Virus record (IMG/VR): IMGVR_UViG_3300047481_000243
Coordinates: 1-29,505 of that record
DNA: 29,505 nucleotides
Direction: 5' to 3' (one strand)
Source: a virus
The notes under the pieces: model-generated
The model's input: the letters and a program-made list of their open reading frames with translations, nothing else
Databases searched by the model: none
What the model was told of the DNA's origin: nothing
Shown: in pieces, positions 1-16,009 of the stretch
Layout of the letters: each line of letters starts with the position of its first letter
How positions within the stretch are numbered: position 1 is the first letter of the stretch
Position numbers and translations under genes: made by a program

Positions 1-198
1 GTTGGAACTTCCTTTCAGAAGATGCGTGTTCAAGATGTGGCAGACACAGCACTTCTGCAATGCGCTGACGAATTTCATAACTTGCAAATTACTGACGCTA
101 TGGTCAAAGCAGCAAGAGCAAATGCTCAAAGAGTAAGAACTCAAGTAGATATCGCTCGCTCTATCGGGACTTCCGTTAGGGCTTCACTAGAAGTATAG
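1..198 (+). CDS. C-terminal end of an unknown protein (cut by left edge)
   Basis: Reading frame 1 is open from the first base to a TAG at 196-198 and gives 65 residues, so the gene begins outside the window. The fragment is polar and probably helical, with many Ala, Gln and Arg residues. I see no cysteine cluster or catalytic motif and cannot name the family. A short gene starts 8 bases downstream, which suggests the same operon. Confidence 0.6.
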   Translation, partial: VGTSFQKMRVQDVADTALLQCADEFHNLQITDAMVKAARANAQRVRTQVDIARSIGTSVRASLEV

Positions 199-206
199 GA
201 GTTATC

Positions 207-371
207 ATGCTTGGATATGAATACAAAGATGTCCAGAAGTTTGGTGAAACCTTAACCAAAGCAATCGTACTGGCTTCTTTGGCTGGAGATAAAGAAACTC
301 GAGAAGGTCTAACGAAAATATGGGATTTTTTCGAAGGACTAATAGGAGAAGGGTATATCAATGAAAGTTAG
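207..371 (+). CDS. 54-aa hypothetical protein
   Basis: A 54-residue ORF starts at ATG 207, preceded by a usable AGGAG at 197-201. Its last codons overlap the ATG of the next gene at 361 by 11 bases, the tight overlap usual in this genome. The product is a small, mixed-charge, probably helical protein beginning MLGYEYKDVQKFGETLTKAI. The family is not recognised. It is supported by position, ribosome binding site and overlap rather than by homology. Confidence 0.6.
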   Translation: MLGYEYKDVQKFGETLTKAIVLASLAGDKETREGLTKIWDFFEGLIGEGYINES

Positions 372-639
372 TTATCTAAAAGAAATGATCAAGCACTTGC
401 CAGACGATAATCATATTTTCGTGGCTATGTTTGAAAAAGAAGAAGCAGAAGAACACCTTGTTGAAAACCTCAACGAGGGTAAAGACTTCCCAATATCAAA
501 CGAACAATGGCAAGAAATAGTTGAAAACATGGATCGTGACGAAAGTATGTGGGAAGAAATAACTAACTGCTGGAGGCACTACATAGAAAAACTCTACGCT
601 CAAACAAAAGAAGGGAAAATCAATGACTCAGGTCAATGA
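361..639 (+). CDS. Small acidic hypothetical protein
   Basis: This is a 92-residue acidic protein. The N-terminus (MKVSYLKEMIKHLPDDNHIFV) has the layout of short phage proteins with a 'MKVsxLixxLkxLPddxxVxV' opening, a helix followed by a strand. The C-terminal half is helical with several Trp and Glu residues. The start overlaps the end of the 54-aa ORF, with GGAGAAGGG upstream. Its end overlaps the next gene by 17 bases, so it is translationally coupled to the nuclease that follows. The function is unknown. Confidence 0.7.
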   Translation: MKVSYLKEMIKHLPDDNHIFVAMFEKEEAEEHLVENLNEGKDFPISNEQWQEIVENMDRDESMWEEITNCWRHYIEKLYAQTKEGKINDSGQ

Positions 640-1564
640 ACTAATCAATATAATAACCAAGTCAAGCAGCAAATCTGCTAGGTCTCAGCAAAAAATAGTT
701 GGACCTAGCGAGGTTGGTGGTTGTTCAAGAAAACTTTGGTATAAGTTGAACAACCAAGAAACTACTAATCAAAATACTCTTTCTCTAGCCTCTATTATGG
801 GAAGTGGTATTCACTCCTACTTACAGAAAATCTTTTATGAACAAGACCCATTTGCGGAAAGGTTCTTATTAGAACAAGAGTTCGATTCACCAGAAGATGA
901 AATGGTTGGTCATATTGACATGTATGACAAAATCAACCATGAAGTTATCGACTGGAAAACTAGTACCAAATCTAATCTAGGTAGATACTTCCCTACTAAA
1001 TCGCAACGCTGGCAAGTACAGTTATATGGATATCTTGCTAGTCGTGCTGGATATGAAGTAAAAACAGTAACTCTTGTTGGCATACCCAGAGATGGAGATG
1101 AAAGAGATATTGTTTACCACAGTGAGCCATTTGATATTGAAGTATGTAAGGAGGCTCTCGCTTGGTTAGCGCAAGTAAGACAATCTCAAACTCCACCGCC
1201 AGCAGAAAAAGACGCAGTATTCTGTAAAAACTATTGTTCTTTCTATGATGCTAGTGGCGTGAAAGGTTGTGTTGGTCGCCCAAAAGCCGTAGCGGAAACC
1301 GCAATTATTGAAGATGTCAAAATAGCGGTGGCCGCAGAGTATTATCTTGAGATCAATGAGAAAATAAATAATCTAGAAAAAGAGAAAGATGTTATCAAAT
1401 CTTTACTCGAAGGGATTAGTGGGATAACTGAAAATGGTCTCAGGATAAATTGGAGCATAACAGCAGGTAGAAAGAGTGTGGACGAAGAAGAAGTTCGCAA
1501 ACTTTTGGGTCATGTTCCATACAAGGTTGGCAGAGAATCGACTCGGCTCACCGTCAAGAAATGA
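623..1564 (+). CDS. Cas4/RecB-like PD-(D/E)XK exonuclease
   Basis: The 313-residue protein shows the RecB/Cas4-type nuclease signature in order: His64 in GSGIHSY, Asp99 in GHIDMYD, Asp110-Trp-Lys112 in VIDWKTS, and the Gln131/Tyr135 motif in QVQLYGY. Cys34 lies before the core, and Cys201, Cys205 and Cys216 follow it, the arrangement that holds a 4Fe-4S cluster in Cas4 and AddB-type nucleases. The C-terminal ~90 residues look like a coiled coil. It is likely a metal-dependent DNA exonuclease acting in recombination or replication, which fits its neighbours (initiator, RusA, SSB). There are no CRISPR genes nearby, so a role in spacer acquisition is unlikely. It starts at ATG 623 behind AAGGGAAAA. 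Confidence 0.85.
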   Translation: MTQVNELINIITKSSSKSARSQQKIVGPSEVGGCSRKLWYKLNNQETTNQNTLSLASIMGSGIHSYLQKIFYEQDPFAERFLLEQEFDSPEDEMVGHIDMYDKINHEVIDWKTSTKSNLGRYFPTKSQRWQVQLYGYLASRAGYEVKTVTLVGIPRDGDERDIVYHSEPFDIEVCKEALAWLAQVRQSQTPPPAEKDAVFCKNYCSFYDASGVKGCVGRPKAVAETAIIEDVKIAVAAEYYLEINEKINNLEKEKDVIKSLLEGISGITENGLRINWSITAGRKSVDEEEVRKLLGHVPYKVGRESTRLTVKK

Positions 1565-1620
1565 AGGGCATTTCTAAAACTATGAGCCATAATGAAACTT
1601 AACTACGGAAGGAGTTTATT

Positions 1621-2403
1621 TTGGGCTGGGTAAGAATCGATGATAACTTTTCAGATCACCCAAAAGTTATCGCATTATCAGATGCTGCATTTCGGTTATT
1701 CATAACTGGATTGTGTTATTCAAATAGGCAACTAACTGATGGTTTAATCCCTTATCAAATTGTTTCTAATTTGGTAGGGGATAATCCATTCAAACCAAGT
1801 GATGAGTTGGAAGACCAAAACTTATGGGAAAGAGTAGATAAAGGATTTCTAATCCGCTCTTATACAGAGTATCAACCAACTCGAGAAAAGGTAAACAAGA
1901 AAAGGGACGAGGCTAAATTACGGCTAAAGAAGTTTCGTGAAAAAGCAAAAACTAAAGAAACGGAAAAGAAACGCCACCCCCAACCCAACCCAACCCAACC
2001 CAACCCAATATCCTTAGATATAGATATATCTAAGGAGGTAGTGCTTGCCCCAACTAATATCTCAGCAAAGAATGCAGTTGAAAGAATATCTGAGAAACTT
2101 GGTCAAGCAAGAGCAGGTGGGGTCAATGCTTGGAATATGAGCAAACTGGTTGAAGAACAATGGGACATACTTCATGCCGAAAACGATATCAATGGTTGTA
2201 TTGCTCTTACTATTTGGTATGTATCAGAATTACAATCACGAGTTCTGACGACAGCCGAATCAGCAAGAATTGGTCAGATGACTAAAAGATTCGGCAGAAT
2301 ATCTTTACTAGCAATAGATGAAGCAGTAAGTAAAGACCTGAAAGATTTACCTAGTTATGCTTTAAGAGTAGCCCAAAGAATGTATTCTGAACAGAAGGCT
2401 TAA
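1621..2403 (+). CDS. Replication initiator-like winged-helix protein
   Basis: This 260-residue protein starts at TTG 1621, with AAGGAG six bases upstream. The N-terminus (MGWVRIDDNFSDHPKV) and the segment to about residue 95 match the winged-helix domain common in phage replication initiator or replisome organiser proteins. A charged Lys/Glu-rich linker follows, then a Pro-Gln-Asn linker at about residues 119-131 encoded by a pentanucleotide repeat. The C-terminal helical domain could be a helicase-loader contact. It sits in the replication block. Lambda-type initiators carry the origin inside their own gene, and this gene also has a repeat plus palindrome in its middle. The call rests on the N-terminal pattern and context. 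Confidence 0.65.
   Translation: MGWVRIDDNFSDHPKVIALSDAAFRLFITGLCYSNRQLTDGLIPYQIVSNLVGDNPFKPSDELEDQNLWERVDKGFLIRSYTEYQPTREKVNKKRDEAKLRLKKFREKAKTKETEKKRHPQPNPTQPNPISLDIDISKEVVLAPTNISAKNAVERISEKLGQARAGGVNAWNMSKLVEEQWDILHAENDINGCIALTIWYVSELQSRVLTTAESARIGQMTKRFGRISLLAIDEAVSKDLKDLPSYALRVAQRMYSEQKA
1981..2005 (+). repeat. Five tandem CAACC repeats
   Basis: Five perfect copies of the pentamer CAACC lie in the middle of the initiator-like gene, and partial copies extend the tract to about 1976-2008. Because 5 is not a multiple of 3, the tract encodes an alternating Gln-Pro-Asn-Pro-Thr linker. It is immediately followed by an AT-rich perfect palindrome. It may be a protein linker only, or initiator binding sites. 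Confidence 0.85.
2011..2036. repeat. 26-bp perfect AT-rich palindrome inside the initiator gene
   Basis: Two 12-base arms, TCCTTAGATATA and TATATCTAAGGA, are exact reverse complements separated by GA. The right arm runs into AAGGAGG at 2032-2038, a near-perfect Shine-Dalgarno sequence, with an in-frame GTG at 2041 only two bases further on. That gap is shorter than usual. It could be an origin element, an operator, or a hairpin that hides an internal ribosome binding site. Confidence 0.8.
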
Positions 2404-2404
2404 T

Positions 2405-2596
2405 ATGTTTATTGGCGATAAAGAAATTGGCGAGGGTTGGGAATCTATGTCTTGCCCTTTCTGTGAAGGATTTATCGTGATTTGGGAAGTTGGAGCAGGG
2501 CTGTTATTTGACCCAACAATTCCCTTTTCGGCACACATGGCAGAAGTTCATAGAATAAAAGTTCCAGACTTGACTGGCTGGAGAAGAAAGAGGTAA
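2405..2596 (+). CDS. Small C2H2-type zinc-binding protein
   Basis: A 63-residue protein with Cys17-x2-Cys20 and His44-x4-His49, a spacing compatible with one zinc site in a C2H2-like fold. The segment between is hydrophobic. The start codon lies one base after the stop of the initiator gene, so the two are coupled. It is likely a nucleic-acid or protein-binding accessory factor, but the target cannot be read from the sequence. Confidence 0.7.
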   Translation: MFIGDKEIGEGWESMSCPFCEGFIVIWEVGAGLLFDPTIPFSAHMAEVHRIKVPDLTGWRRKR

Positions 2597-2598
2597 AA

Positions 2599-2907
2599 AT
2601 GAGGAAGGGTAAACATTGCGGTAAGCCTTCTTGCATCTGCACGCATACAGATGGTTGTGAGGCAGGCTGGATATTTGTGCAATATTGGGTTGATGGACAT
2701 GGTGTCCAATGCTCTGAAAATGATAGCATTGACAAGACCCAGAAAGAAGCCGTAGTTCCATGTGCAAACTGCGACTATGAAAGGTGGCATATATGGAAGA
2801 GTTCCGCCACTAGTGAGGAATATTACGAGCGACTCCGTGCTCGTGGAAAACATACCCGAATCAAAGCCTACGAATTAGAAGAGAGTTCTAAGACTCGCAT
2901 TCTATAA
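2599..2907 (+). CDS. Cys/His-rich zinc-binding protein
   Basis: This 102-residue protein has Cys7, Cys12, Cys14, His16, Cys20 and Cys38, then a second knuckle Cys55-x2-Cys58 with His64. The pattern 'CxCxHxxGCxxGW ... PCxxC' occurs in small zinc-finger proteins of actinobacterial phages, so two zinc sites are plausible. The C-terminal ~40 residues are basic and helical. The gene starts two bases after the preceding stop. Its molecular role is unknown; nucleic-acid binding is a reasonable guess. Confidence 0.7.
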   Translation: MRKGKHCGKPSCICTHTDGCEAGWIFVQYWVDGHGVQCSENDSIDKTQKEAVVPCANCDYERWHIWKSSATSEEYYERLRARGKHTRIKAYELEESSKTRIL

Positions 2908-2918
2908 AAGGAGGGCAA

Positions 2919-3386
2919 ATGAATAGGAAACAAAAGGGCTTAAAAGCCCCTCAGAACGGAAAGAAAATAAAGCGGTTAAAGTTTTACCTTGGCGGATATT
3001 TGACCGCCATAATGACCTTTGCAAGCCCTTTAACCCATGTCCATGCCCCAGTTGGGCAAAGCGTTTGGGCACAAGACAAAGAATTTACCGACCCAAAGAG
3101 TTTTGCCCGCAATATTGCAGAGAAACAATATAACTGGAATCAAGAGCAATGGAAATGCTTAGGTAAATTATGGGGTAAAGAATCTGCTTGGAATTATGAG
3201 GCGAAGTCCCCCACCCAAGATTACGGCATACCCCAAAGGCACATGAGCCAAAATACCGAACAGGAAATTGCTGAATTTCTAGATAGTCCAGTAACTCAAA
3301 TAACTTGGGGGCTGAACTATATTAAAGTCCGCTATGGTTCACCATGTGAGGCTTGGGCATTTCATCAAGATAGGAACTGGTATTGA
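2919..3386 (+). CDS. Exported lytic transglycosylase-like muralytic enzyme
   Basis: A 155-residue protein with a basic N-terminus and a hydrophobic stretch at about residues 22-36, a signal peptide or anchor. It is followed by a domain with the pattern W-x-C-L-x-x-L-W-x-K-E-S-x-W (Cys80, Glu88) and YGIPQ at 102-106. That pattern is typical of aggregation-promoting-factor or SLT-like transglycosylase domains in actinobacteria, where the Glu is the likely catalytic acid. Cys80 and Cys143 could form a disulfide. An excellent AAAGGAGG lies just before ATG 2919. It probably cleaves peptidoglycan during lysis or entry. No classical endolysin or obvious holin is adjacent, and placement among replication genes is unusual. 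Confidence 0.75.
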   Translation: MNRKQKGLKAPQNGKKIKRLKFYLGGYLTAIMTFASPLTHVHAPVGQSVWAQDKEFTDPKSFARNIAEKQYNWNQEQWKCLGKLWGKESAWNYEAKSPTQDYGIPQRHMSQNTEQEIAEFLDSPVTQITWGLNYIKVRYGSPCEAWAFHQDRNWY

Positions 3387-3766
3387 AAGATTCGTTTTTT
3401 GTTAAAGGAAGACCAGTACCTCAAGGTTCTATGAAGTTTATTAGACCCGGAGTTATGATTCATTCTCGTTCTCAAGACTTGGCCGTTTGGCGTGCTGACA
3501 TAGCAAGAAACGCAGAACTATTTGGTTTCAAACCTGTTGCAAGTGCAGTCAAAGTAGAATTAGATTTCATTATGCTCAAACCAAAATCAGCAAAAAGAGC
3601 ATTCCCCGCAGTAAAGCCTGACCTAGACAAACTAATCAGAGCAGTTTTAGACGGACTGACTGGTGTAGCATACGAAGACGACTCTCAGGTTATTCTCATA
3701 CAAGCAACTAAAACTTATGGGATAAATCAAGGAGTCTGGATAGGAATAGAGCAAATACTTGAGTAA
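3383..3766 (+). CDS. rusA: RusA-like Holliday junction resolvase
   Basis: The 127-residue protein has the RusA layout: an N-terminal strand with GRPVPQGSMKF, then the signature KPDLDKL (Asp80, Asp82, Lys83), Asp90, and YEDDSQV (Asp99, Asp100). These acidic residues correspond to the metal-binding active site of RusA endonucleases, and the length is normal for the family. It cuts four-way junctions formed during phage recombination and before packaging. It starts at TTG 3383, overlapping the stop of the preceding gene in a TTGA junction. Confidence 0.92.
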   Translation: MKDSFFVKGRPVPQGSMKFIRPGVMIHSRSQDLAVWRADIARNAELFGFKPVASAVKVELDFIMLKPKSAKRAFPAVKPDLDKLIRAVLDGLTGVAYEDDSQVILIQATKTYGINQGVWIGIEQILE

Positions 3767-4118
3767 GGGTAAAACAGATTTGACTGAAATCAGAGAGATG
3801 GTAGGAGTTAGATGTAAAAACTACTGCGAAAAATGCGGTAAACCACTTGGTGGCTCATGGGCTTTACATCATAGAAAACTACGATCTAGAGGTGGTAAAG
3901 ATACCTGTTCTAACTTTGTGGCACTACACCATGAATGCCACAATATGGGCACAGATAGTGTACACATGAACCCTTCCGCATCTAACCAAGCAGGGCTAAT
4001 GGTTGCGACTTGGCAAGAACCAGAAGAAACACCATTGATTTTGCCTAGTGGTGCTATTGTTCTACTTACAGATGACGGAAGTTATCGATATCTAGAAGGG
4101 AATCAAAATGGCTGGTGA
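3759..4118 (+). CDS. HNH endonuclease
   Basis: A 119-residue protein with a zinc knuckle Cys23-x2-Cys26, the HNH core His37-His38 in WALHHRKLRSRGGKD, Asn52 in SNFVALHH, and a second zinc pair around Cys60/His61. This is a complete HNH nuclease fold. It starts at TTG 3759 inside the end of the resolvase gene (8-base overlap), and its end overlaps SSB by 11 bases. Lying within a replication operon rather than inside another gene, it is more likely a housekeeping phage nuclease than a homing invader. Confidence 0.88.
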   Translation: MSKGKTDLTEIREMVGVRCKNYCEKCGKPLGGSWALHHRKLRSRGGKDTCSNFVALHHECHNMGTDSVHMNPSASNQAGLMVATWQEPEETPLILPSGAIVLLTDDGSYRYLEGNQNGW

Positions 4119-4503
4119 ACCAGTAATTACAGTGATAGGAAACTTAGGCTCTGATGCCGAGTTTAGAAAAACACCCAAAGGAGTATCCGTGACATCTTTC
4201 AATGTTGCTAATACACCTAGAAAAAACATTAATGGAACATGGACTGAGCAAGAGACAACTTGGTATCGTGTTTTTGTTTGGAATGCCGAAGCAGCAGGAG
4301 CAGCCAATGCTTTGAAAAAAGGCGACAAGGTAATAGTTCAAGGTAGATTTCAAATAAATACCTACATAGCCAAAGACGGAGAAGAGAAAAAAAGTTTAGA
4401 AATCAACTCTGACTTTGTTGGAGTAATACCGAAATACATTGCCGAGCCACAAAATACACCAATTAAAGAAAATGAAGGAACAGACAGTGACTTCCCTTGG
4501 TGA
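4108..4503 (+). CDS. ssb: Single-stranded DNA-binding protein
   Basis: The 131-residue protein has a typical OB fold: VITVIGNLGSDAEFRKTPKG, SFNVANTPR, TTWYRVFVWNAEAA, LKKGDKVIVQGRF. A short polar linker leads to the acidic tip DSDFPW, which in bacterial SSBs docks partner proteins. It coats single-stranded DNA during replication and repair. AAGGGA lies upstream of ATG 4108. The length is short for SSB but usual for phage versions. The next small ORF overlaps its 3' end. Confidence 0.95.
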   Translation: MAGEPVITVIGNLGSDAEFRKTPKGVSVTSFNVANTPRKNINGTWTEQETTWYRVFVWNAEAAGAANALKKGDKVIVQGRFQINTYIAKDGEEKKSLEINSDFVGVIPKYIAEPQNTPIKENEGTDSDFPW

Positions 4504-4660
4504 AAAAATTATTTCTATTGGCAAGAAGATTGATGCTCTTGAAAAAAGAGGATATAGTGACCAAAAAATGTTAAAAGTCCAGTGTAGCCATTGCGGAAAA
4601 TGGTTTTCATTAACAAGCAAGAACATCAGGGTTATGAATTATTGCTCTGAGTGTTTATAG
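4472..4660 (+). CDS. Small zinc-ribbon protein
   Basis: A 62-residue protein with a helical N-terminus and a C-terminal zinc ribbon, Cys38-x2-Cys41 and Cys58-x2-Cys61. I chose ATG 4472 (MKEQTVTSLG), which overlaps ssb by 32 bases; the frame is open upstream to a TTG at 4439, and the ribosome binding site here is weak. It may bind nucleic acid, but the role is unknown. Confidence 0.6.
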   Translation: MKEQTVTSLGEKIISIGKKIDALEKRGYSDQKMLKVQCSHCGKWFSLTSKNIRVMNYCSECL

Positions 4661-4664
4661 AATT

Positions 4665-4817
4665 GGGTTATGCGAGTGGTAGTTGTTCCTTCCGTCCGAC
4701 TACTTAACCCGATAGGTAAGTGTATGTTCGTGGTACAACATACTTATCTATTATCACTCTATAGATGTGAGAGTCTATCTGCGTTGTTATTACCCTTCCA
4801 ACAGGATAGGCTCTCAC
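4665..4817 (+). ncRNA. Candidate structured RNA: three consecutive stem-loops
   Basis: The 177-base gap between coding regions holds three strong hairpins. Hairpin 1 pairs GGGTTA 4665-4670 with TAACCC 4705-4710, around an inner stem of 4679-4685 with 4697-4703. Hairpin 2 pairs 4711-4728 with 4737-4752, about 16 pairs including G-U, a 2-base bulge at 4721-4722 and an 8-base loop. Hairpin 3 pairs GTGAGAGTCTATC (4767-4779) with GATAGGCTCTCAC (4805-4817), 13 pairs with one G-U and a 25-base loop. The last stem ends a few bases before the ribosome binding site of the 57-aa ORF. No tRNA T-loop and no U-tract terminator are present. It could be a cis-regulatory leader or an independent small RNA. 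Confidence 0.6.
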
Positions 4818-4837
4818 CCTAGAAAGAAGGGATAATT

Positions 4838-5011
4838 ATGAAAAAAGGCCAAAGAAGAAAGTTTCAAGATATAAATGATTTTTTAGAAAATGCAACCGAT
4901 GAAGAGTTTTCAATCAAGTATAAAAAGATAGAATGCGAAAATCCTTATGGTGTTGGTTCTTTATGGCTATTATTTGAAAGAGCCAAGAAGAAAGGGTATG
5001 CTCCCTTTTAA
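4838..5011 (+). CDS. 57-aa hypothetical protein
   Basis: A short ORF starts at ATG 4838 behind AGAAGGGA and encodes 57 residues, basic at the N-terminus (MKKGQRRKFQ), with an aromatic segment SLWLLFERAKKK near the end. It follows directly after the three-hairpin element and precedes the ParB-like gene by 15 bases. It may be the first gene of the modification operon. No family is recognised. Confidence 0.6.
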   Translation: MKKGQRRKFQDINDFLENATDEEFSIKYKKIECENPYGVGSLWLLFERAKKKGYAPF

Positions 5012-5026
5012 CGAAAGGACAGAATA

Positions 5027-5698
5027 ATGGAAATTATCAGTGCGGAAATAGATAGTCTTTTACCTTTTCCCAACAACCCAAGAAGAGGCAATATCAGTAA
5101 GTTAAAAGAATCTTTAGCGACTAATGGTCAATACAAACCTATCGTCATACAAGCATCAACTAGATATATTTTGGCTGGTAATCATCTATGGCAAGCAGCA
5201 AAAGAAAGCGGTTGGACAAGAATTGACATAGTAGAAGTAGATGTAAATGCTACCCAAGCAAAGAAAATAGTAGCCACCGACAATCGTTTGGGCGAACTAG
5301 GAACTTATGATGAACAAGAATTATTAGACTTACTTCAAGATATCAGTTTAGAAGGCACTGGTTATGACAGCCAAGATATTGATGATTTAATAGCACTAAT
5401 AGAAGAACAGTCCAACACCCCACTGTATGAAGAAACTGGAAGTATGGTCGATGGTGTTGCTGGTGGAGGTCAATTATCTCAAGAAGGAATCAATAGAAGA
5501 CCTACTATGTCTGAAAGAGCCTCCCACTACGCTGAAAGAACAGTCAGATTACTTATGTGTGAGTTTCCCAACGATCAATATATTTGGGTTCAGGACAGAC
5601 TTACCGAACTAAGAGTGAAGTACAATGTGGATAGTAACGGAGACGCAATTTTGCGTGCTATCGCAGAGGTAACAGGAACAGAGGCACCAAGTGATTGA
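5027..5698 (+). CDS. ParB-like N-terminal domain protein
   Basis: The 223-residue protein opens with a ParB/sulfiredoxin-fold domain (about residues 1-90). Visible markers are LLPFPNNPRRGNISKLKESL, GQYKPIVIQ, and YILAGNHLWQAA, which corresponds to the nucleotide-binding GxH box of ParB-like proteins, then DNRLGELGTYD. The C-terminal part (about 160-223) is a separate helical domain. In phages, such proteins are often encoded beside DNA-modification enzymes and may act as CTPase or nuclease-like adaptors. Here it immediately precedes the dioxygenase, with an 8-base overlap, so a role in targeting or regulating base modification is the best inference. Plasmid-type partitioning is unlikely because no ParA is present. 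Confidence 0.8.
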   Translation: MEIISAEIDSLLPFPNNPRRGNISKLKESLATNGQYKPIVIQASTRYILAGNHLWQAAKESGWTRIDIVEVDVNATQAKKIVATDNRLGELGTYDEQELLDLLQDISLEGTGYDSQDIDDLIALIEEQSNTPLYEETGSMVDGVAGGGQLSQEGINRRPTMSERASHYAERTVRLLMCEFPNDQYIWVQDRLTELRVKYNVDSNGDAILRAIAEVTGTEAPSD

Positions 5699-6560
5699 AG
5701 ACCTAGAAGTTATTCCAGTTAAAAGAGTTATTGACAGAAAAAAAACAAAAGAGTTAAAAGGTATTGATGTTCCAGAAATGGAAGCAAATGTAAAAAGTGC
5801 AGGTATTTTTGTGGACTCTGAATCTAACGAGCCATTTTTAGTTTACATGCCTCTTCCTAAAGAAGTTGTGCCTGAATTAAGAAAGGCTGTTCGCTCAATA
5901 AAGTATTCTTCTTCAGGTGTTACAAGACAATCAACTGGTGTAGAAAATCACTCTCGAACTTTCGGCATGGCACCAAGAAAACCTTTTCAAACAAGAGAAG
6001 CATGTCGTCCTACTGCTTTATCTTACGATCAACCAGAAGAACACGATGTATTAACTAAAACAGCAGATGTATTAGCCGATATTATTAGGGAAATAGTTCC
6101 AGATGCTTACGCAGCAGATACTGTTGAGACCGCAGGAGTAGCAGATGAGTGGAGATTAAGCGAACGCAGTTTGTGGACCAGTGGAGTTATCAATAAAACT
6201 TCAACACTGCCATATCATTTTGACGGAAACAATTTTGATATGTGGTCTGCCATGCCAATTATTAGAAGAGGAACTAGAGGTGGCTATTTAAGTTTACCCG
6301 AATACGATATGGTATTAGACTGCCGAGATGGTTGGGTAGTATTTTGGCCAGGATACAGATATCTTCATGGCGTAACACCGATTGCCCATGTTCAGAAAGA
6401 TTCATACCGATACACTGTTGTTTATTATTGTTTAAGGGGCATGAAAGATTGTTTTTCATTTGCGGTCGAACAGAAAGAAGCAAGAAAGCGAAGAACTCAG
6501 CGAGAAGTAGGATTGGCTTCTGCCTTAAAAGGTGAAACTGAATTTAAGGTAGGGCGTTGA
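5691..6560 (+). CDS. TET/JBP-like 2-oxoglutarate Fe(II) DNA-base dioxygenase
   Basis: A 289-residue protein starting at GTG 5691. The double-stranded beta-helix signature is clear: His176-x-Asp178 in LPYHFDGNNF, GGYLSLPEYD at 197-206, a distal His226 in YRYLHGVTP, and Arg240 in SYRYT, the expected 2-oxoglutarate anchor. Upstream, SRTFGMAPRKP (about 88-98) resembles the conserved 'R-x-FG-x-x-PR' segment of TET/JBP enzymes. That family hydroxylates the 5-methyl group of 5-methylcytosine (TET) or thymine (JBP). The next gene encodes a TET-associated-type glycosyltransferase, which strongly supports the call over a generic prolyl-hydroxylase-like enzyme. Which base it acts on cannot be read from the sequence. 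Confidence 0.8.
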   Translation: MIEDLEVIPVKRVIDRKKTKELKGIDVPEMEANVKSAGIFVDSESNEPFLVYMPLPKEVVPELRKAVRSIKYSSSGVTRQSTGVENHSRTFGMAPRKPFQTREACRPTALSYDQPEEHDVLTKTADVLADIIREIVPDAYAADTVETAGVADEWRLSERSLWTSGVINKTSTLPYHFDGNNFDMWSAMPIIRRGTRGGYLSLPEYDMVLDCRDGWVVFWPGYRYLHGVTPIAHVQKDSYRYTVVYYCLRGMKDCFSFAVEQKEARKRRTQREVGLASALKGETEFKVGR

Positions 6561-7345
6561 AATATCAAGTTGTAATCCCTTCTTATCAAAGAGCAGAGAT
6601 TTGCCGAGATCAAACCCTAGCCACATTAGAAAGACTTAAAGTAGATAAAAGCAAGATACATGTCTTTGTCGCCAACGAACAACAGAAAGAACTTTACAGT
6701 TCTGTATTAAAAGACGAGTATCAAATTATCGTAGGTGTTCGTGGTATTTCTAGTCAGCGTAAGTTTTACCACAACTGGTTTCCAGAAAATGAAAGATTAA
6801 TCAGTATTGACGATGACCTAGCAGATTTACTAGAATTAGGAGACAAGAAACTGGTACCAACACGGTACCAATTGGACGAAATAGCAGAAGTAGGATTTTC
6901 CGTAGCAGAAGCCCAACAAGCGAGGCAATGGGGTATCAACCCAACCATGAACCATTTCTTTCTCAAGAATCATATTTCCGTAGGATTAAGATATATTTGT
7001 GCCAACTTTATGGGATCTTACGCCAAAGACTGGATATTCACAGACCCCAACAGAAGAATGACCAATACAGGAGAAGACCATCACAGCACTCTTAGAGGAT
7101 TTACTAGATATGGCGCAGTAGTTAGACTAGAGTATCTATGTCCAAAGACTAAGTATTTTGCGAAGGGTGGAATAGATGCTTGCGTGGTTGAAGATGGGCA
7201 AACTAGAGCCCAAAGACATGCCGAAGAACTTTCTGTTGTTCAATCACTATTTCCAGATATCTCATCAATACAAGTCAAAGCAGGTGGCGTAGTTAATCTT
7301 AGATTGAAGCCGATTACCTTTAACAAGATACCGAGGGATATATGA
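6557..7345 (+). CDS. TET-associated-type glycosyltransferase (TAGT-like)
   Basis: A 262-residue protein with a GT-A-like layout: KYQVVIPSYQRAEICRDQTL at the N-terminus, a strand IHVFVAN at 34-40, GVRGISSQRKFY at 60-71, and the metal/nucleotide-sugar acidic motif SIDDDL (Asp85-87). A second conserved block is GEDHHSTLR (172-180). This order matches the glycosyltransferases described beside TET/JBP oxygenases in phages and fungi. It would transfer a sugar to the hydroxymethylated base made by the upstream enzyme. It starts at TTG 6557, overlapping the dioxygenase stop in a TTGA junction, so both should be made together. Sugar donor unknown. Confidence 0.82.
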   Translation: MKYQVVIPSYQRAEICRDQTLATLERLKVDKSKIHVFVANEQQKELYSSVLKDEYQIIVGVRGISSQRKFYHNWFPENERLISIDDDLADLLELGDKKLVPTRYQLDEIAEVGFSVAEAQQARQWGINPTMNHFFLKNHISVGLRYICANFMGSYAKDWIFTDPNRRMTNTGEDHHSTLRGFTRYGAVVRLEYLCPKTKYFAKGGIDACVVEDGQTRAQRHAEELSVVQSLFPDISSIQVKAGGVVNLRLKPITFNKIPRDI

Positions 7346-7959
7346 GTTTACAGACAAGAGAAGGCACAACAGACCTAGATACTGTTAAGTCTATTGGTCA
7401 ATACAAGTCTTGCCCGATACCAAAAGATTCAGTCATCTTAGATATTGGTGGACACATTGGAACTTTTACCACTTGGGCAGTTGAGCAGGGCGCAGGTAAA
7501 GTTGTAGCCTATGAACCCGAACCAGATAATTTTCGTATGCTAACTTTGAACACAGCCGGAATGCCTGTTGAACTTAATAACAAAGCCGTTACCCAAGACG
7601 GCAGAGATGTAGCACTTCATGTTAAGACTTCAGGTCACACTGGTGGACACAGCATTATTTTCAATGGTCCAACTAGACAAGACATGATAGTGCCAAGCGA
7701 TAGATTTATTGATATTGTTAATAGAGTGCAGCCAGTTGTTATTAAGATAGACTGCGAAGGGGCGGAATACGAGTTTGGTCTACCAGATACCCTACCCGAC
7801 TCAGTTCGCTACATAACTATGGAGATACACCTAAACCGAAAAGATTTCAGAGAAAATCTTGCGCCCAAGATGATAGAAGCCTTCAAGAGTTGGACACCAA
7901 TTAAGCCTCCAAGAATTACTCCGAAAGGCTGGCAAACAACAGTAGTTTGGGGTAGGTAA
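7342..7959 (+). CDS. FkbM-family SAM-dependent methyltransferase
   Basis: The 205-residue protein has a Rossmann-like SAM-binding core: motif I VILDIGGHIGTFT (Gly36, Gly37, Gly40), AYEPEPDNF at 56-64 with the ribose-binding acidic residue, and the FkbM hallmark IKIDCEGAE (134-142). FkbM enzymes O-methylate sugars and related hydroxyls. The gene overlaps the glycosyltransferase by 4 bases (ATGA) and ends against the terminase small subunit. The natural inference is that it methylates the sugar placed on the phage base, which would be a third step of modification. Methylation of a surface glycan is the alternative. Confidence 0.85.
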   Translation: MSLQTREGTTDLDTVKSIGQYKSCPIPKDSVILDIGGHIGTFTTWAVEQGAGKVVAYEPEPDNFRMLTLNTAGMPVELNNKAVTQDGRDVALHVKTSGHTGGHSIIFNGPTRQDMIVPSDRFIDIVNRVQPVVIKIDCEGAEYEFGLPDTLPDSVRYITMEIHLNRKDFRENLAPKMIEAFKSWTPIKPPRITPKGWQTTVVWGR

Positions 7960-8444
7960 TGACAGATGCCGTAGTCAAGAAGGGTCGGAAGAGCAAGTTA
8001 GATAAAGACCGACAAGATAAACTACTCAAAGCCATACGAGTAGGCAACGATAAGAAAGTAGCCTGTGCTCTTGCTGGTATCTCCGAAGCAACTCTTTATA
8101 GATGGTTAGAACAGTCAAAAGAGAAGAACGCAACTGAGCAATTAAGAGAGTTTCGAGAGTCGTTTGAGCGTGTTGAAGCAGAAGCAGAAGTATTGAAAGT
8201 ATCTAGAATTGCCCAAGCAGCAGATAACGGAAGATGGCAAGCAGCAGCATGGTGGCTAGAAAGAAAATACCCAGAGCGTTGGGCGCAACAGACTAAGATA
8301 AAGGCAGAGTTGTCAGGACCTGATGGCAGACCAATAGCAATCAGTGTTGAAGAGGCAAGAAAGATAGTTCTAGAAATGCTAAACGAAGGAGAAGGTAGTG
8401 GGCTTATCACTGAAGGAGAAAGTCCAGAAGTTATCCAAGAGTGA
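7959..8444 (+). CDS. terS: Terminase small subunit
   Basis: A 161-residue protein with a basic N-terminus and a helix-turn-helix (about residues 22-50: KAIRVGNDKKVACALAGIS, ATLYRWL). A helical segment for oligomerisation follows, with WWLERKYPERW near 108-118, a pattern common in small terminases. It recognises phage DNA at packaging initiation and hands it to the large subunit, whose gene overlaps its 3' end by 47 bases. The start ATG overlaps the stop of the methyltransferase gene (TAATG). Confidence 0.85.
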   Translation: MTDAVVKKGRKSKLDKDRQDKLLKAIRVGNDKKVACALAGISEATLYRWLEQSKEKNATEQLREFRESFERVEAEAEVLKVSRIAQAADNGRWQAAAWWLERKYPERWAQQTKIKAELSGPDGRPIAISVEEARKIVLEMLNEGEGSGLITEGESPEVIQE

Positions 8445-9780
8445 GAAAGAGAATTGGCTTGCAACATTATCTGAGCCAGTGCTTCAAGAACTACATAAAT
8501 CGCCTTGGTGGTTTATTGGTAGACCTGAACAACAAGAACCCGAAGGTGATTGGTTCATTTGGTTAATTCTTTCTGGTCGTGGTTGGGGTAAAACTAGAAC
8601 AGGAGCAGAGTGGCTTGCTCGTAAAGTAATTGAAAATCCTAAAACCAAAGATGGAGTAGCAACACAATGGGCTATTGTCGCACCAACCTTCAAAGACGCA
8701 AAGAGTATCTGCGTAGAAGGACCAAGCGGATTACTTAAAGCCCTACAACACAATGGATTGCAGAACGAAAAGGATTATATCTATAACAAATCTTCACATA
8801 AAATTGATTTCACTAGTGGAGCAAGAATACATACTTTTGGTGCAGACTCTCCAGATACAGGTCGTGGTCTTAACCTTTCAGGTGCTTGGCTAGACGAATT
8901 AGCATCATGGCAATATCCATACGAATCATGGACAGAAGGATTAGCACCAGCATTGCGTATTGGTGAAAGACCAAGAGTAGTAGTGACCACTACACCCAAA
9001 CCAATAAAGTTAATTCGTGAGTGGGTTAGTAGAGCAGACGGCTCAATAAACTTAACTAGAGGTAGCACATTTGATAATGCTAAGAACCTTTCAGGGAACG
9101 CATTGAAAGAATTAAGAAGCCGATATGAAGGAACTAGAACTGGGCGACAAGAACTTTATGGTGAAATACTTGAACAGGCTGAGGGAGCATTGTGGATAAG
9201 AAACTGGATAGAAGATACAAGAATTAGTCTTGATAACTTACCTAAACTCACAAGAGTTGTGGTAGGTATAGACCCTGCCGTAACAAGTGGTGAAAACTCT
9301 GATGAAACAGGAATTGTTACCTGCGGTATTGGTGTAGATAAACATTTCTATGTTTTATCTGATGATACCCTGCGAGCAACACCTAATGAATGGGGCAAGC
9401 GAGCACTTCAAGCATATACAAGATGGAGAGCAGACAGAATAATTGCGGAAGTGAATAATGGCGGAGACATGGTTGCTATGGTTATACAACAGGTAGATAG
9501 AAGTGCGCCAGTCAAGAAAGTTCATGCGACACGAAATAAATCTACAAGAGCAGAACCAATATCAGCACTCTATGAACAAGGTAGGGTTCACCATGTAGGA
9601 GGCTTTCCACAGTTAGAAGACCAAATGGTTCTTTGGACACCAGACTCTAGGACATCACCAGATAGATTAGATGCTTTAGTTTGGGCACTAACAGAATTAA
9701 GTGGTAATTATCAAACACTGGCAGGAACAGTTCCCCTATCGCTCACCCAAATCAATGACTGGTCTATACCGAGAATGTAA
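8398..9780 (+). CDS. terL: Terminase large subunit
   Basis: The 460-residue packaging ATPase-nuclease has Walker A at 59-66 (SGRGWGKT), Walker B with the catalytic Glu at 164-167 (WLDE), and coupling motif VVVTTTPKP near 193-201. The RNase H-like nuclease follows, with Asp292 (VGIDPA), Glu351 (AEVNNGGD) and Asp422/Asp425 (PDRLDAL). All key residues are intact. The start is GTG 8398 inside the small-subunit gene, which has a GAAGG just upstream; this long overlap suggests coupled translation. It resembles terminases of the Terminase_6 group. Confidence 0.95.
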   Translation: MGLSLKEKVQKLSKSEKENWLATLSEPVLQELHKSPWWFIGRPEQQEPEGDWFIWLILSGRGWGKTRTGAEWLARKVIENPKTKDGVATQWAIVAPTFKDAKSICVEGPSGLLKALQHNGLQNEKDYIYNKSSHKIDFTSGARIHTFGADSPDTGRGLNLSGAWLDELASWQYPYESWTEGLAPALRIGERPRVVVTTTPKPIKLIREWVSRADGSINLTRGSTFDNAKNLSGNALKELRSRYEGTRTGRQELYGEILEQAEGALWIRNWIEDTRISLDNLPKLTRVVVGIDPAVTSGENSDETGIVTCGIGVDKHFYVLSDDTLRATPNEWGKRALQAYTRWRADRIIAEVNNGGDMVAMVIQQVDRSAPVKKVHATRNKSTRAEPISALYEQGRVHHVGGFPQLEDQMVLWTPDSRTSPDRLDALVWALTELSGNYQTLAGTVPLSLTQINDWSIPRM

Positions 9781-10087: not shown

Positions 10088-10205
10088 GGGAATAACAGAT
10101 AATTGGGGATTAGCAATACAATTCCACAGTTGGGATAAAAGTATAACTATTCAGTTTGTGCGTTTCTACATTATTTTCGTAGCCCATAAGTGGTGGAAAA
10201 ACTAA
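10074..10205 (+). CDS. 43-aa hypothetical protein
   Basis: A short ORF starts at ATG 10074 inside the end of the DUF6378-like gene, behind GAGAGATAG. It encodes 43 aromatic- and basic-rich residues ([20 protein letters not shown] at the start). Its last four bases overlap the end of the convergent minus-strand gene. It fills an otherwise empty gap, which favours a real gene, but there is no homology support. I see no bidirectional terminator at this junction. Confidence 0.45.
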
Positions 10206-10393
10206 TCGTCCCATGGTCCTTCTTTGAATAATATACTTGCGTCATTTTCTTCAAGTAGGGCATCAAACAACTCATCGGGTTCTAAAGTTTTAATATGCCC
10301 ACCCTTGAAATAAATCCAAATAGATACACACAAAGCAGTAACACTAAACATAAAAGCAAAGATACTTAAAATTAAAGACACCCAACTAACCAT
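10202..10393 (-). CDS. Small single-pass membrane protein
   Basis: A 63-residue minus-strand protein with one hydrophobic segment (about residues 4-29, SLILSIFAFMFSVTALCVSI) followed by a basic and then an acidic cytoplasmic-type tail. Its ATG overlaps the stop of the upstream Gp88-like gene by 8 bases, so the two form an operon. It could be a holin-like or superinfection-exclusion protein by size alone, but nothing specific supports that. Confidence 0.65.
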   Translation of the reverse strand: MVSWVSLILSIFAFMFSVTALCVSIWIYFKGGHIKTLEPDELFDALLEENDASILFKEGPWDD

Positions 10394-11102
10394 GACTAAG
10401 TTTCCTTTCTTTCAATTGATCTCTTTCCGTCTGTAACTCTGAAAAAGTACGCCTGTTCATTTTCTTATTAAAGTGTTTTATATTATTAGCAGGTATGCCT
10501 ATCTTAGTTGTGGGTAATGTTATTGCCAATAAATCAGAAGCCTCTTGGTTCATATATCCTGCGTCAAGTATTGCAGCATCGTCAGGGAACACATCGGCAT
10601 GGCGATCAAGTTCTTTGTTAATCAAGTGGTCTTCCTTACCACCCATAGAATATAAGTATCGAAAGTTTTCAGGACAGTTAGGTTCTACCAATTTCTTGAA
10701 ACGACTAACCTCTTTCGTGTAGGCATAGAAATTTACTTCAGGAGTTTGCCGAGCAATATCCACCCAAGCAAGGAGATAATCGTCGCTGTAAAAATCTCCA
10801 GAATCGTGTATCCTGACATGCTTTCCTTTCATTTTCTTTTGCTGAACCTCAAGTAGCATTTGTGCTTTCCACTCTTCAAGGTGGTATAGAGTATATTCTA
10901 AATTCTTAATATGCCTACTTTTTACATTACTAAAAAGATAAGTACCATTTCTAGCATAACAGAACGAAGCACAAGCCCCTGCGCTTGGGCAAACATTAAA
11001 ATTAGTTCCGTCTGTTAGTTTTATAGCAAAGGCAGGTAAACTCCAGTTATAGATACCGTCAGGTCTTAATTCACTATTTTGCGACAATAGTTTCTTAAAC
11101 AT
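10386..11102 (-). CDS. Gp88-family protein
   Basis: A 238-residue minus-strand protein. It has a Cys-rich block VCPSAGACASFCYARNGTY, then RHIKNLEYT, VRIHDSGDFYSDDY and FYAYTKEV. This order matches the Gp88 family known from actinobacterial phages and actinobacteria. The Cys pattern suggests a metal or iron-sulfur site. Its function is not established. I place the start at ATG 11102-11100 because GGGAGGG lies a few bases upstream on that strand; the frame is open for 32 further codons, but that extension would cross the divergent plus-strand gene. It is oriented against the rest of the genome, so it is probably expressed at a different time. Confidence 0.8.
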   Translation of the reverse strand: MFKKLLSQNSELRPDGIYNWSLPAFAIKLTDGTNFNVCPSAGACASFCYARNGTYLFSNVKSRHIKNLEYTLYHLEEWKAQMLLEVQQKKMKGKHVRIHDSGDFYSDDYLLAWVDIARQTPEVNFYAYTKEVSRFKKLVEPNCPENFRYLYSMGGKEDHLINKELDRHADVFPDDAAILDAGYMNQEASDLLAITLPTTKIGIPANNIKHFNKKMNRRTFSELQTERDQLKERKLSHG

Positions 11103-11113
11103 TAATCCCTCCC

Positions 11114-11151
11114 TTGACCAAGTAGTCACTTCATACCCTACACTATTAGAT
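11114..11151 (+). promoter_or_regulatory. Candidate promoter giving a leaderless transcript
   Basis: The 49-base gap between divergent genes has TTGACC at 11114-11119 and TACACT at 11139-11144 (19-base spacer), seven bases before ATG 11152. No Shine-Dalgarno precedes that ATG. Transcription would start at or next to the start codon, as in the leaderless mRNAs common in actinobacteria. The -35 box abuts the ribosome binding site of the minus-strand Gp88-like gene. Confidence 0.45.
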
Positions 11152-11340
11152 ATGAACGGAATTGTCATCAAAGAACTTGACCGAGCATTAAAGCGCACTC
11201 GGGAGAGAATGTTGTCTTATTCCGACACCGAAATCAAGCAAATAGAAGGGTTATTAACGGCAGCAACACTGGCTACCTCGCTTGAAAAATACAGTCGTGA
11301 AATAGAAGCCATGAAAATAAAACAGCCAGAGTTGGTATGA
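11152..11340 (+). CDS. 62-aa helical hypothetical protein
   Basis: A short, charged, helical protein (MNGIVIKELDRALKRTRERM at the start). It is the first plus-strand gene after the divergent region and ends three bases before the WhiB-like gene. There is no Shine-Dalgarno upstream, but a promoter-like pair sits at the right distance for a leaderless mRNA. No family recognised. It may partner the WhiB-like regulator. Confidence 0.6.
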   Translation: MNGIVIKELDRALKRTRERMLSYSDTEIKQIEGLLTAATLATSLEKYSREIEAMKIKQPELV

Positions 11341-11343
11341 ATT

Positions 11344-11688
11344 TTGTTGAACCGCTACCCAGAGTTTGATGGCTCTCAATTATGTGCACAAACAGACCCA
11401 GACCTTTGGTTCCCAACAGCAGATAGACAGACAGGTAGAGTAGCAAAAACTCTTTGTTCAAAGTGTTTATGGGTAAAAGATTGCTTAAATTACGCATTAC
11501 AGAACGATGTTACTGGAATATGGGGCGGTAAAACAGAAAGAGAGAGAAGTGGTATTCGAAAGAAACTCAAAATAAAAGCCGAGCCAATATACCTTGACGC
11601 TTTGTTTGCGCCTTCACAGAGGGGTAAAGTAGGAGCAGGCAGGTATAATGAGGAAGTAGATGAGGTGACTGATGACCGAGTTTCGTAA
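11344..11688 (+). CDS. WhiB-like iron-sulfur transcription regulator
   Basis: A 114-residue protein with the four WhiB cysteines: Cys14, Cys38-x2-Cys41 and Cys47 (LCAQTDPDLWFP, CSKCLWVKDC), then the conserved turn GIWGG at 58-62 and a basic segment TERERSGIRKKLK. This is the full WhiB signature. Such proteins bind a 4Fe-4S cluster, interact with the actinobacterial sigma factor, and are found only in actinobacteria and their phages, so it is the best host marker in the window. Phage versions can repress host whiB genes or help superinfection exclusion. Start TTG 11344 (TTG 11347 equally possible). Confidence 0.9.
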   Translation: MLNRYPEFDGSQLCAQTDPDLWFPTADRQTGRVAKTLCSKCLWVKDCLNYALQNDVTGIWGGKTERERSGIRKKLKIKAEPIYLDALFAPSQRGKVGAGRYNEEVDEVTDDRVS

Positions 11689-13262: not shown

Positions 13263-15137
13263 ATGCCATTTATCACCAAGGCAAGAAAAAGAAACGACCC
13301 AGTTCTTCGCAGCCCAACCGCAAAATTAAATAAATACGAGCAAGAAATATATGATATTTACTACAAGGCTTTATCTTCCATGCCCAAAGACTTAGATAAT
13401 TCTTCAGTATTAAGAACAATAAGAGAAGCAGTTGAAGCAGGTAACCCAATGGACGCTGCTATCGCATTTCGGTGGCGAGACTTTATTACCTCGCTAGATA
13501 AAACAGTTCCAAAGTTAGCACAACAAGTTGCGTCATCTGCAAATATCAGTGCCAAGAGTTTACCCAAAAGAATAAGAATTGAATCTTCATTTACCGCCCA
13601 AGACCCAAGAGCAATAGCATGGGCGCAGAAAAGAGCAGGAGCAAGAATACTTGGCATAACTAAAGAAACACAGAAAGCAGTTGCAGAAACTATTGCTCGC
13701 AGTCTTAAAACCCAACTTAAGAGAGAAGAAGTAATCGATAGAATAACTAAAATTGTAGGATTAGATGCTCGGCAAGCAAAAGCACTAGGTAACTTCTATG
13801 AGAAGAATCTTAACGATTTATTAGAAGAGGGTTATGGTTATGAAGAGGCTGTTAAAATAGTAACTAAGTTAAGTAAGGAATATCGAGATAGACTGTTAGT
13901 TCAGAGGGCTACAAGAATTGCCAGAACGGAAACTGTTAATGCTGCCAACGCTGGTCGCTATCTTTCTTGGGTAGAAGCAGACGCTCAAGGATTATTACCT
14001 ACTGGTAGTCAAAAAAGATGGAAAACCGCACAAGATGAAAGAGTTTGCTCTGTTTGTGGACCATTACACAATGTGACCATTGACTGGGAAGAAGCATTCC
14101 CTACTGGTGATGTTATGCCAACTAATCACCCAAACTGTAGATGTACAGCAGTTATTGTTCCAGCAGACCCAGTCTTTGAAAAGGTTGTTGAAAAAAGATA
14201 TTATCGATTTGCTGACGGCGAAGAAACTTGGCGCAACTACGATTATAGATGGCGCAAAATAGCAAATGAAATGAAAAGAAGAATAGGCAAGTGCCAGCGA
14301 TGCGGAAGTAAATCAGACCTCACAGTCGACCACAAGAAAAGATTGAAAGATGGTGGAGCCAAATATGACCGAAAGAATCTAAGAGTATTATGTCGCTCTT
14401 GTAATGGTAGGGCTTCAAGATTAGGAACTAAGTTAAGAAAAGAAGCAGAGTCTTGGTGGTTAGTGAAACACCTACCGGGAAAACACGACCAGAAAACTCA
14501 TGGTGGCAAAGGTGGTGGTGGGGCAGGACCAAAGAATATAGATATAAATAAACCAGCAGGAACAGCGACACTTCCAAATGGTAAAACTTACAATCTTTGG
14601 GAAAATGTAAATTGGATTGACGATGAAGATGGTGTTGATAATCAGAATATAGAAAGAGGAGCAGGTTTAGTATTTGATAATTTGAACAAGGATCAAGTTT
14701 TACTTACACCAGACGAGTGTGATGATTATATGACAGAAGTATTAAACAAGTATGGTTATGGTAATAGAGTATTTTCTACCAGTAGTGATGGAGATAAGCA
14801 ATTTAAGGGCAAGTCAATAGAGGCAGCGGTAGCAGCAGGATTAACTAATAATTTACCGAGCGATAGTCCATTTAAAGATAAAGATATACCAGTATTTGTC
14901 GTTAGAAGTCGTGGCACAACTAAAATTTCACTATTACATGAAGCAGCACACATGATGGAAGGCAGTTGGAAACTAAAAGAAAATACACCACAAAGAGGAA
15001 GAGCAGGTGGTGGTCATAGCCTAAGATGGTATTCAACTTGGGTTGCTTTACTAGAAGCAGAAGGTTTTAATCAACAAGCAAATTTATTAAAATTCACAAT
15101 CGGTTCAACAGAAAATAAGGGAGTATTAGGTGATTAG
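13263..15137 (+). CDS. MuF-like head protein fused to HNH and metallopeptidase-like domains, with His-rich tag
   Basis: This 624-residue protein is a fusion. The N-terminal half ends in a MuF minor-head domain (about 205-298): RIARTETVNAANAGR, CSVC at 262-265, NHPNCRC at 289-294. An HNH nuclease domain follows (330-390) with CQRC at 344-347, DHKKRLKDGG and LCRSC at 376-380. Then comes the tag VKHLPGKHDQKTHGG (401-415) with a glycine-rich linker. The C-terminal domain holds HEAAH (559-563) and GGGHSLRWY (582-590), the layout of a zinc metallopeptidase with a third ligand at His585. MuF proteins in other phages carry toxin-like C-terminal domains delivered into the host. That is the likely reading here, though the peptidase target is unknown. 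Confidence 0.8.
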   Translation: MPFITKARKRNDPVLRSPTAKLNKYEQEIYDIYYKALSSMPKDLDNSSVLRTIREAVEAGNPMDAAIAFRWRDFITSLDKTVPKLAQQVASSANISAKSLPKRIRIESSFTAQDPRAIAWAQKRAGARILGITKETQKAVAETIARSLKTQLKREEVIDRITKIVGLDARQAKALGNFYEKNLNDLLEEGYGYEEAVKIVTKLSKEYRDRLLVQRATRIARTETVNAANAGRYLSWVEADAQGLLPTGSQKRWKTAQDERVCSVCGPLHNVTIDWEEAFPTGDVMPTNHPNCRCTAVIVPADPVFEKVVEKRYYRFADGEETWRNYDYRWRKIANEMKRRIGKCQRCGSKSDLTVDHKKRLKDGGAKYDRKNLRVLCRSCNGRASRLGTKLRKEAESWWLVKHLPGKHDQKTHGGKGGGGAGPKNIDINKPAGTATLPNGKTYNLWENVNWIDDEDGVDNQNIERGAGLVFDNLNKDQVLLTPDECDDYMTEVLNKYGYGNRVFSTSSDGDKQFKGKSIEAAVAAGLTNNLPSDSPFKDKDIPVFVVRSRGTTKISLLHEAAHMMEGSWKLKENTPQRGRAGGGHSLRWYSTWVALLEAEGFNQQANLLKFTIGSTENKGVLGD

Positions 15138-15861: not shown

Positions 15862-16000
15862 AGCCGAAAGATTTGCGGGATCAATGACCGAAGGTGCTCG
15901 CCTTCTTGTTCGCAGAATAGGTGAGTCTAAAATCCGTAAAGCAGAAGAAATAAAGGACTTCACTGGCGTTGAACCCGAAGCCCAAGATGAAAGTCGATAG
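15854..16000 (+). CDS. 48-aa basic hypothetical protein
   Basis: A short ORF from ATG 15854 overlapping the ADP-ribosyltransferase stop by 8 bases. It encodes 48 residues, basic in the first 30 (MSKAERFAGSMTEGARLLVR) and acidic at the end. It lies nine bases before the large fusion gene. It lacks the His-rich tag. An antidote or immunity function for the upstream toxin-like enzyme would be speculation; a chaperone or junk ORF is equally possible. Confidence 0.5.
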   Translation: MSKAERFAGSMTEGARLLVRRIGESKIRKAEEIKDFTGVEPEAQDESR

Positions 16001-16009
16001 AATAAAGCC

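Follow-up and report, generated by a model that had tools for sequence, protein, structure and literature searches.

What is the task of four overlapping genes placed just ahead of the terminase genes of a phage? The question is raised by the IMG/VR virus record IMGVR_UViG_3300047481_000243, a stretch of 29,505 bases (positions 1 to 29,505 of the record) that is called the window below. Its genes for a ParB-like protein, a TET/JBP-type dioxygenase, a TET-associated glycosyltransferase (TAGT) and an FkbM-family methyltransferase may, judging from sequences and structural models, form a cassette for the post-replicative hypermodification of thymine, with TET, TAGT and FkbM acting in that order; we give this reading, taken as a whole, an even chance. 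The genes concerned are the following (aa, amino acids; SAM, S-adenosylmethionine).

5027..5698, + strand: ParB-like protein, 223 aa (PF02195, E=4e-6; PHROG 723, E=7e-42)
5691..6560, + strand: TET/JBP Fe(II)/2-oxoglutarate dioxygenase, 289 aa, GTG start (PF12851, E=1e-8)
6557..7345, + strand: TAGT, GT-A type, 262 aa, TTG start (PF20691, E=4e-8)
7342..7959, + strand: FkbM-family SAM methyltransferase, 205 aa (PF05050, E=5e-10; TIGR01444, E=1e-18)
7959..8444, + strand: terminase small subunit, directly 3′ of FkbM (PHROG 4102, E=2e-34)
8398..9780, + strand: terminase large subunit, the fixed right-hand neighbour (PF03237, E=4e-22; PF17289, E=1e-17)

The initial annotation had described four overlapping genes of these kinds, and the description holds: the reading frames are open at these positions, and the Pfam matches lie above curated cut-offs. 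The two junctions it had singled out are also present, TTGA between TET and TAGT and ATGA between TAGT and FkbM, each an overlap of 4 bases. The ParB and TET frames overlap by 8 bases at the GTG start (GTGATTGA), and FkbM meets the small terminase gene at TAATG, so that the gene run extends into the terminase genes, a point absent from the earlier description. Since cassette order and frames are retained in independent contigs with protein identities of 71-88%, and the ratio of non-synonymous to synonymous substitution rates (dN/dS) of the cassette genes that allowed its calculation is 0.04-0.12 in comparisons with relatives, a sign of purifying selection, the arrangement lies far beyond chance. 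A 57-aa open reading frame (ORF) is found directly upstream of the ParB gene, at 4838-5011.

The oxygenase and its partner proteins

The sequence score of the oxygenase lies only just above the curated cut-off of the Tet_JBP profile (PF12851), at 35.0 bits for 34.9. The HxD...H...R motif reported earlier was recovered as H176-x-D178, H226 and R240, i.e. the iron triad and the 2-oxoglutarate arginine, all invariant in sets of 21 and 38 homologues, and an alignment profile search of the PDB gave NgTet1 chains as best matches. The sequence score alone being marginal, the structure search carried the weight. Comparison of a predicted structure with TET/JBP structures had been set beforehand as a test, and the AlphaFold2 model (predicted local distance difference test, pLDDT, 85) passed it: it has a TET-like double-stranded beta-helix, and ranks 1 to 26 of the PDB search were all TET family members (NgTET1, with E=1.4e-12, CcTet, CMD1 and human TET2), followed by FTO and AlkB-type demethylases. 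The oxygenase is proposed as a thymine hydroxylase acting in phage DNA, and the claim that a TET-type oxygenase and a glycosyltransferase together hypermodify DNA is now strongly supported.

The TAGT scored 33.8 bits (PF20691, curated cut-off 27.5) and carries the metal motif DDD at 85-87, with D85-D87 invariant in 16 homologues; it very probably glycosylates DNA. FkbM scored 40.2 bits with Methyltransf_21/FkbM (PF05050, curated cut-off 22.7) and 68.2 bits with NCBIfam fkbM_fam (TIGR01444, cut-off 37.7). Its SAM-motif residues D34, G36, G40, E58 and K135-x-D137-C-E139-G140 are invariant in 10 homologues, and its model (pLDDT 88) has the class I methyltransferase fold. Profile searches of the PDB with the FkbM and TAGT alignments yielded chance-like or generic matches only.

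The ParB-like protein scored 27.1 bits with the ParB_N profile (curated cut-off 26.3), and its gene has a dN/dS of 0.06. In related loci this gene almost always adjoins TET upstream or lies one gene off, sometimes as two copies, whatever tailoring genes accompany TET. It might target the modification enzymes to phage DNA or load them there. The terminase large subunit gene was found in nearly all related loci, and the place of the cassette before it would fit a modification of DNA ahead of packaging.

An exchangeable slot and the modified base

Tailoring genes were surveyed in 20 close viral loci and 80 from a wider scan (254 relatives counted), with names assigned on the basis of a single member of each sequence cluster. 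The layout ParB-TET-slot-terminase is kept across these loci, and the content of the slot varies. TAGT and FkbM fill it in the window and in L003-L006, TAGT alone in others, two TAGTs in L020, and a GT-B glycosyltransferase of 315 aa in L012, L079 and L083. Elsewhere the slot holds enzymes of thymidine hypermodification, namely the ADDT family (PF18724, 34 loci), a P-loop kinase (PF18751, 33 loci), a DAO-type flavin adenine dinucleotide oxidase (15 loci) or a pyridoxal-phosphate-type enzyme (12 loci), and the TETs of these loci are orthologous to that of the window (50-57% identical). On the TET tree, slot type was switched at least 14 times; the TAGT-bearing L067 nests among ADDT/kinase loci with a support of 99. 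The layout recurs in isolate actinophages: ADDT and kinase in Tonitrus and Wooper, TAGT, a PIG-L deacetylase and kinase in PRodriguez and Indlovu, TAGT and deacetylase in Altadena, and nothing in Nigel.

In 10-12 loci (L056, L059, L064, L065, L069, L072, L074, L075, L089 and L103) the slot downstream of TET is taken by a pair of genes that encode 308 and 148 aa and match neither Pfam nor PHROG. The pair is a candidate for new base-tailoring enzymes.

Which base would the window TET oxidise? Work by Lee and co-workers in 2018 and 2022 is said to place the action of ADDT and the kinase on 5-hydroxymethyluracil (5hmU) in DNA. Because orthologous TETs feed this set too, the shared enzyme most simply makes 5hmU from thymine. 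The genome was also searched for a C5-cytosine methyltransferase. G001 (52,142 bases) is the same virus, matching window positions 1-7188 at 100% and 9402-29505 at 99.99%; given this near-identical overlap, the two together represent essentially the whole genome, about 54.4 kb. The search turned up no such gene (PF00145) in the window and G001, and none in 12 other related virus records or in the complete genomes of nine isolates that have ParB-TET loci; control genomes gave the expected matches. With ADDT and kinase in the same slot of orthologous TETs, and no C5-methyltransferase, the modified base is probably thymine, oxidised to 5hmU. To our knowledge, specificity for thymine cannot be told from specificity for 5-methylcytosine (5mC) by the residues around the HxD motif of the active site, and they were left out of this assignment. 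In another record, L031 (MW202657, 3052-7065), genes for a DNA polymerase, an FkbM methyltransferase and a C5-cytosine methyltransferase-like protein stand side by side, possibly a cytosine counterpart.

Database labels of these genes are often at odds with the above. Many records (e.g. Nigel, Adawi and PRodriguez) give members of the TET family PHROG 6059 the name DpdA-like or queuine tRNA-ribosyltransferase. For the TET of Pelagibacter phage HTVC112P the label is DnaJ/SNF2, and the PHROG that the slot kinase matches bears the name terminase small subunit. All of these look like mislabels; if the TET assignment is right, it amends the annotation of dozens of actinophage genes now called, for example, 'queuine tRNA-ribosyltransferase'.

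The proposed acceptor of the FkbM methyl group

Under the preferred reading, TET would hydroxylate the thymines of phage DNA at their methyl group, yielding 5hmU, TAGT would add a sugar onto the 5hmU hydroxyl, and FkbM would then O-methylate a hydroxyl of the base-linked sugar; the ParB-like protein would bring the enzymes onto phage DNA, and modification would precede packaging. The benefit might be evasion of host restriction, CRISPR, and modification-dependent nucleases recognising bare or plainly glycosylated hydroxymethyl bases.

That FkbM is part of the pathway, as the initial annotation had it, is supported by its recurrence with DNA-modifying genes in several phage lineages: such neighbourhoods are seen in three or more separate settings and are spread over several phage groups not related to one another, of which some are in culture. 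Relatives of the window FkbM (31-37% identity) were found in six viral records that have no TET (L042, L043, L108, L109, L113 and L114). All six encode HMUDK_hel, the 5-hydroxymethyldeoxyuridine (5-hmdU) DNA kinase (E from 1e-40 to 1e-58), together with a member of the thymidylate synthase (TS) family that has Asn at the dUMP/dCMP switch, a position read against E. coli ThyA. Four of them also have a TAGT, and one a GT-B that resembles the GT-B of TET loci by N-terminal sequence. It follows that FkbM goes with glycosyltransferases in phages making 5hmU by either route. The kinase is absent from the window record, G001 and G002.

Marine phages gave two further patterns. Of the 77 readable loci akin to Prochlorococcus phage P-HS2, 64 have the order ParB-FkbM-TET-terminase; of the 34 akin to HTVC112P, 23 have ParB-TET-FkbM, one of them with a TAGT. 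A few of the loci are truncated ahead of ParB. TAGT is absent genome-wide from P-HS2 and HTVC112P, and the latter has an annotated glycosyl transferase next to its tail fibre. In three P-HS2-like loci (L234, L236 and L237) a TAGT occupies the exact place of FkbM between ParB and TET. Among HTVC112P-like loci, L149 and L150 carry ADDT and kinase, and L145 reads ParB-TET-FkbM-TAGT. The FkbM tree places the FkbMs that lack a companion glycosyltransferase in one clade (99/98); on the other side are the FkbMs of the window, of the TS/kinase phages and of L145, the last grouping with FkbMs of glycosyltransferase-bearing phages rather than with the FkbMs of loci related to it by TET. FkbM may thus have two acceptors, methylating the sugar in phages that add one and the hydroxymethyl group in those that do not. 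As cassettes with a glycosyltransferase have FkbMs that stand apart on the tree, O-methylation of the sugar becomes likelier in the window, and we moderately favour the sugar as the acceptor there.

Several points weigh against the reading as a whole. FkbM lies beside TET in about 87 marine loci, about 86 of which have no nearby glycosyltransferase, so that a sugar is no general requirement for FkbM; the division of the FkbM tree reflects few independent events and brings unrelated FkbMs onto the same side; the fold search with FkbM returned generic class I methyltransferases only, with no clue to the acceptor; the Tet_JBP score is barely above its cut-off; and the substrate of TET may be host-made 5mC. 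The many TET loci with FkbM and no nearby glycosyltransferase make a serious rival of direct methylation, in which FkbM acts on the 5-hydroxymethyl group itself to give 5-(methoxymethyl)uracil, the TAGT and FkbM of the window then capping different 5hmU residues in parallel, as alternatives to each other. The P-HS2-like and HTVC112P-like loci, mostly devoid of a nearby glycosyltransferase, the two type phages without TAGT anywhere, and the TAGT standing in FkbM's place as interchangeable caps would, all speak for it. However, the window FkbM is 35% identical over its full length to glycosyltransferase-associated FkbMs, compared to 29% over 147 aa to that of P-HS2, the glycosyltransferase-less FkbMs are a separate clade, and the FkbM of L145 switches type where a TAGT is present; direct methylation in the window is thus judged unlikely, though worth keeping in mind.

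The cytosine pathway has TET oxidise 5mC to 5-hydroxymethylcytosine (5hmC), which is then glycosylated and methylated; the 5mC would come from the host or from a phage enzyme that escaped recognition. TET members in solved DNA complexes act on 5mC, and the TAGT of T6-like phages acts on glucosyl-5hmC (PMC13216743, PMC13390438). We nevertheless find this pathway improbable, as the genome and the nine complete relatives have no PF00145 methyltransferase, and the TET, TAGT or FkbM families in question are repeatedly accompanied by ADDT, 5hmU kinase and a dUMP-type thymidylate synthase. Another view would leave DNA modification to TET and TAGT and make FkbM a methyltransferase of host or virion glycans, or of other small molecules, that entered the operon by chance. 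FkbM enzymes commonly methylate glycans, the FkbM of Synechococcus phage DSL-LC02 lies beside tail fibres, and those of L044 and L045 are in structural regions. The four-base overlaps of the window and the fact that phages not related to one another repeatedly have FkbM near TET, TAGT, TS and 5-hmdU kinase make such an accident quite improbable. Finally, the narrow Tet_JBP score would allow a protein or small-molecule hydroxylase, with the cassette acting on a protein or a surface glycan. For the oxygenase itself this was ruled out by PDB ranks 1 to 26, with nucleic-acid demethylases next, and the slot partners are DNA-base tailoring enzymes; a cassette of this kind is disfavoured, and its probability very low.

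Relation to known systems, and the rest of the genome

Thymidine hypermodification is a known kind of system, as is the combination of TET with TAGT in a phage. The general idea of TET-based tailoring is not new, since Iyer and co-workers in 2013 reportedly saw in phage TET/JBP enzymes the makers of hydroxymethyl pyrimidines that are then tailored further. Rhodococcus phage Tonitrus and Gordonia phage Wooper share with the window a ParB gene and an orthologous TET (41-45% identical) placed ahead of the terminase. Tailoring genes follow there too, but they are ADDT and 5hmU kinase instead of TAGT and FkbM. For the gene set of Tonitrus, its authors suggest a possible thymidine hypermodification system (PMC11955845). 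The order ParB-TET-TAGT is shared with Mycobacterium phages PRodriguez/Acadian, with Indlovu and with Arthrobacter phage Altadena, but their third enzyme is a PIG-L-type deacetylase where the window has FkbM; PRodriguez/Acadian and Indlovu also have a P-loop kinase, and the window cassette has none. Systems said to have been described by Burke and co-workers in 2021 similarly combine a phage TET with glycosyltransferases, but reportedly include a C5-cytosine methyltransferase, which neither our genome nor the nine complete relatives encode. Base J of kinetoplastids is made by a JBP thymidine hydroxylase and a glucosyltransferase. The predicted chemistry of the window, from thymine to 5hmU to glycosyl-5hmU, is similar, but in a phage, with a transferase of the TAGT family and an extra methyltransferase. 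In M6/ViI-type thymidine hypermodification the tailored intermediate is likewise 5hmU in DNA (PMC9599517). The 5-hmdU DNA kinase of that type is present in the TET-less FkbM phages and missing from the window, where 5hmU is predicted to be made by TET on DNA and not at the nucleotide level.

No description of the FkbM step, of its recurrence or of its interchange with TAGT was found among the top-ranked papers of the literature searched, though a mention in Iyer 2013, Burke 2021 or Lee 2018/2022 is possible. The earlier remark that O-methylation of the sugar is not an established phage DNA modification agrees with that literature. Tentatively, and with some doubt, we propose that these FkbMs are a widespread, unrecognised class of phage DNA-tailoring enzymes, with one subgroup making O-methylated glycosyl-5-hydroxymethyluracil (window, L145 and the TS/5-hmdU-kinase phages) and another, from marine cyanophages and pelagiphages (P-HS2, MED4-117, MED4-184 and HTVC112P), making 5-(methoxymethyl)uracil. 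If true, both would be undescribed DNA bases, bearing ether-linked methyls on the sugar or the hydroxymethyl group, a chemistry not found for any phage in the literature searched, and one TET step would supply many exchangeable caps, as an arms race with modification-dependent nucleases predicts. The cultured phages P-HS2, MED4-184 and HTVC112P make the FkbM idea directly testable, and the enzymes would be a likely source of tools for labelling 5hmU.

As for the host, the window carries a gene for a phage WhiB regulator, the genome has a G+C content of 41%, and the isolate relatives are actinophages nearly throughout. A scan of bacterial genomes gave a single relative, in an Actinomycetota metagenome bin, which suggests the host group. 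Together these features point to a freshwater actinobacterium.

Three other features of the genome were noted. In the stretches 10202-11198 (- strand) and 11344-11688, a GP88-family gene (PF17338, E=4e-52) and a small membrane-type ORF are oriented opposite to their neighbours, with the WhiB gene coming next. Five different proteins encoded between the portal gene and the major capsid gene (13263-19830), namely a MuF/HNH fusion, a possible ADP-ribosyltransferase, an XkdF-type protease and two unknowns, contain altogether six copies of a short motif, K-H-x-G-x-H-[D/N]-Q-x-x-H-G/S, with a Gly/Arg-rich stretch behind it; the motif may be a common tag for targeting or packaging. Proteins very rich in glycine and with internal repeats, possibly tail-fibre or adhesin modules, are encoded at 26445-28193 and near 31.4-34.9 kb of G001, and the two parts of the genome share 75-81% DNA identity.

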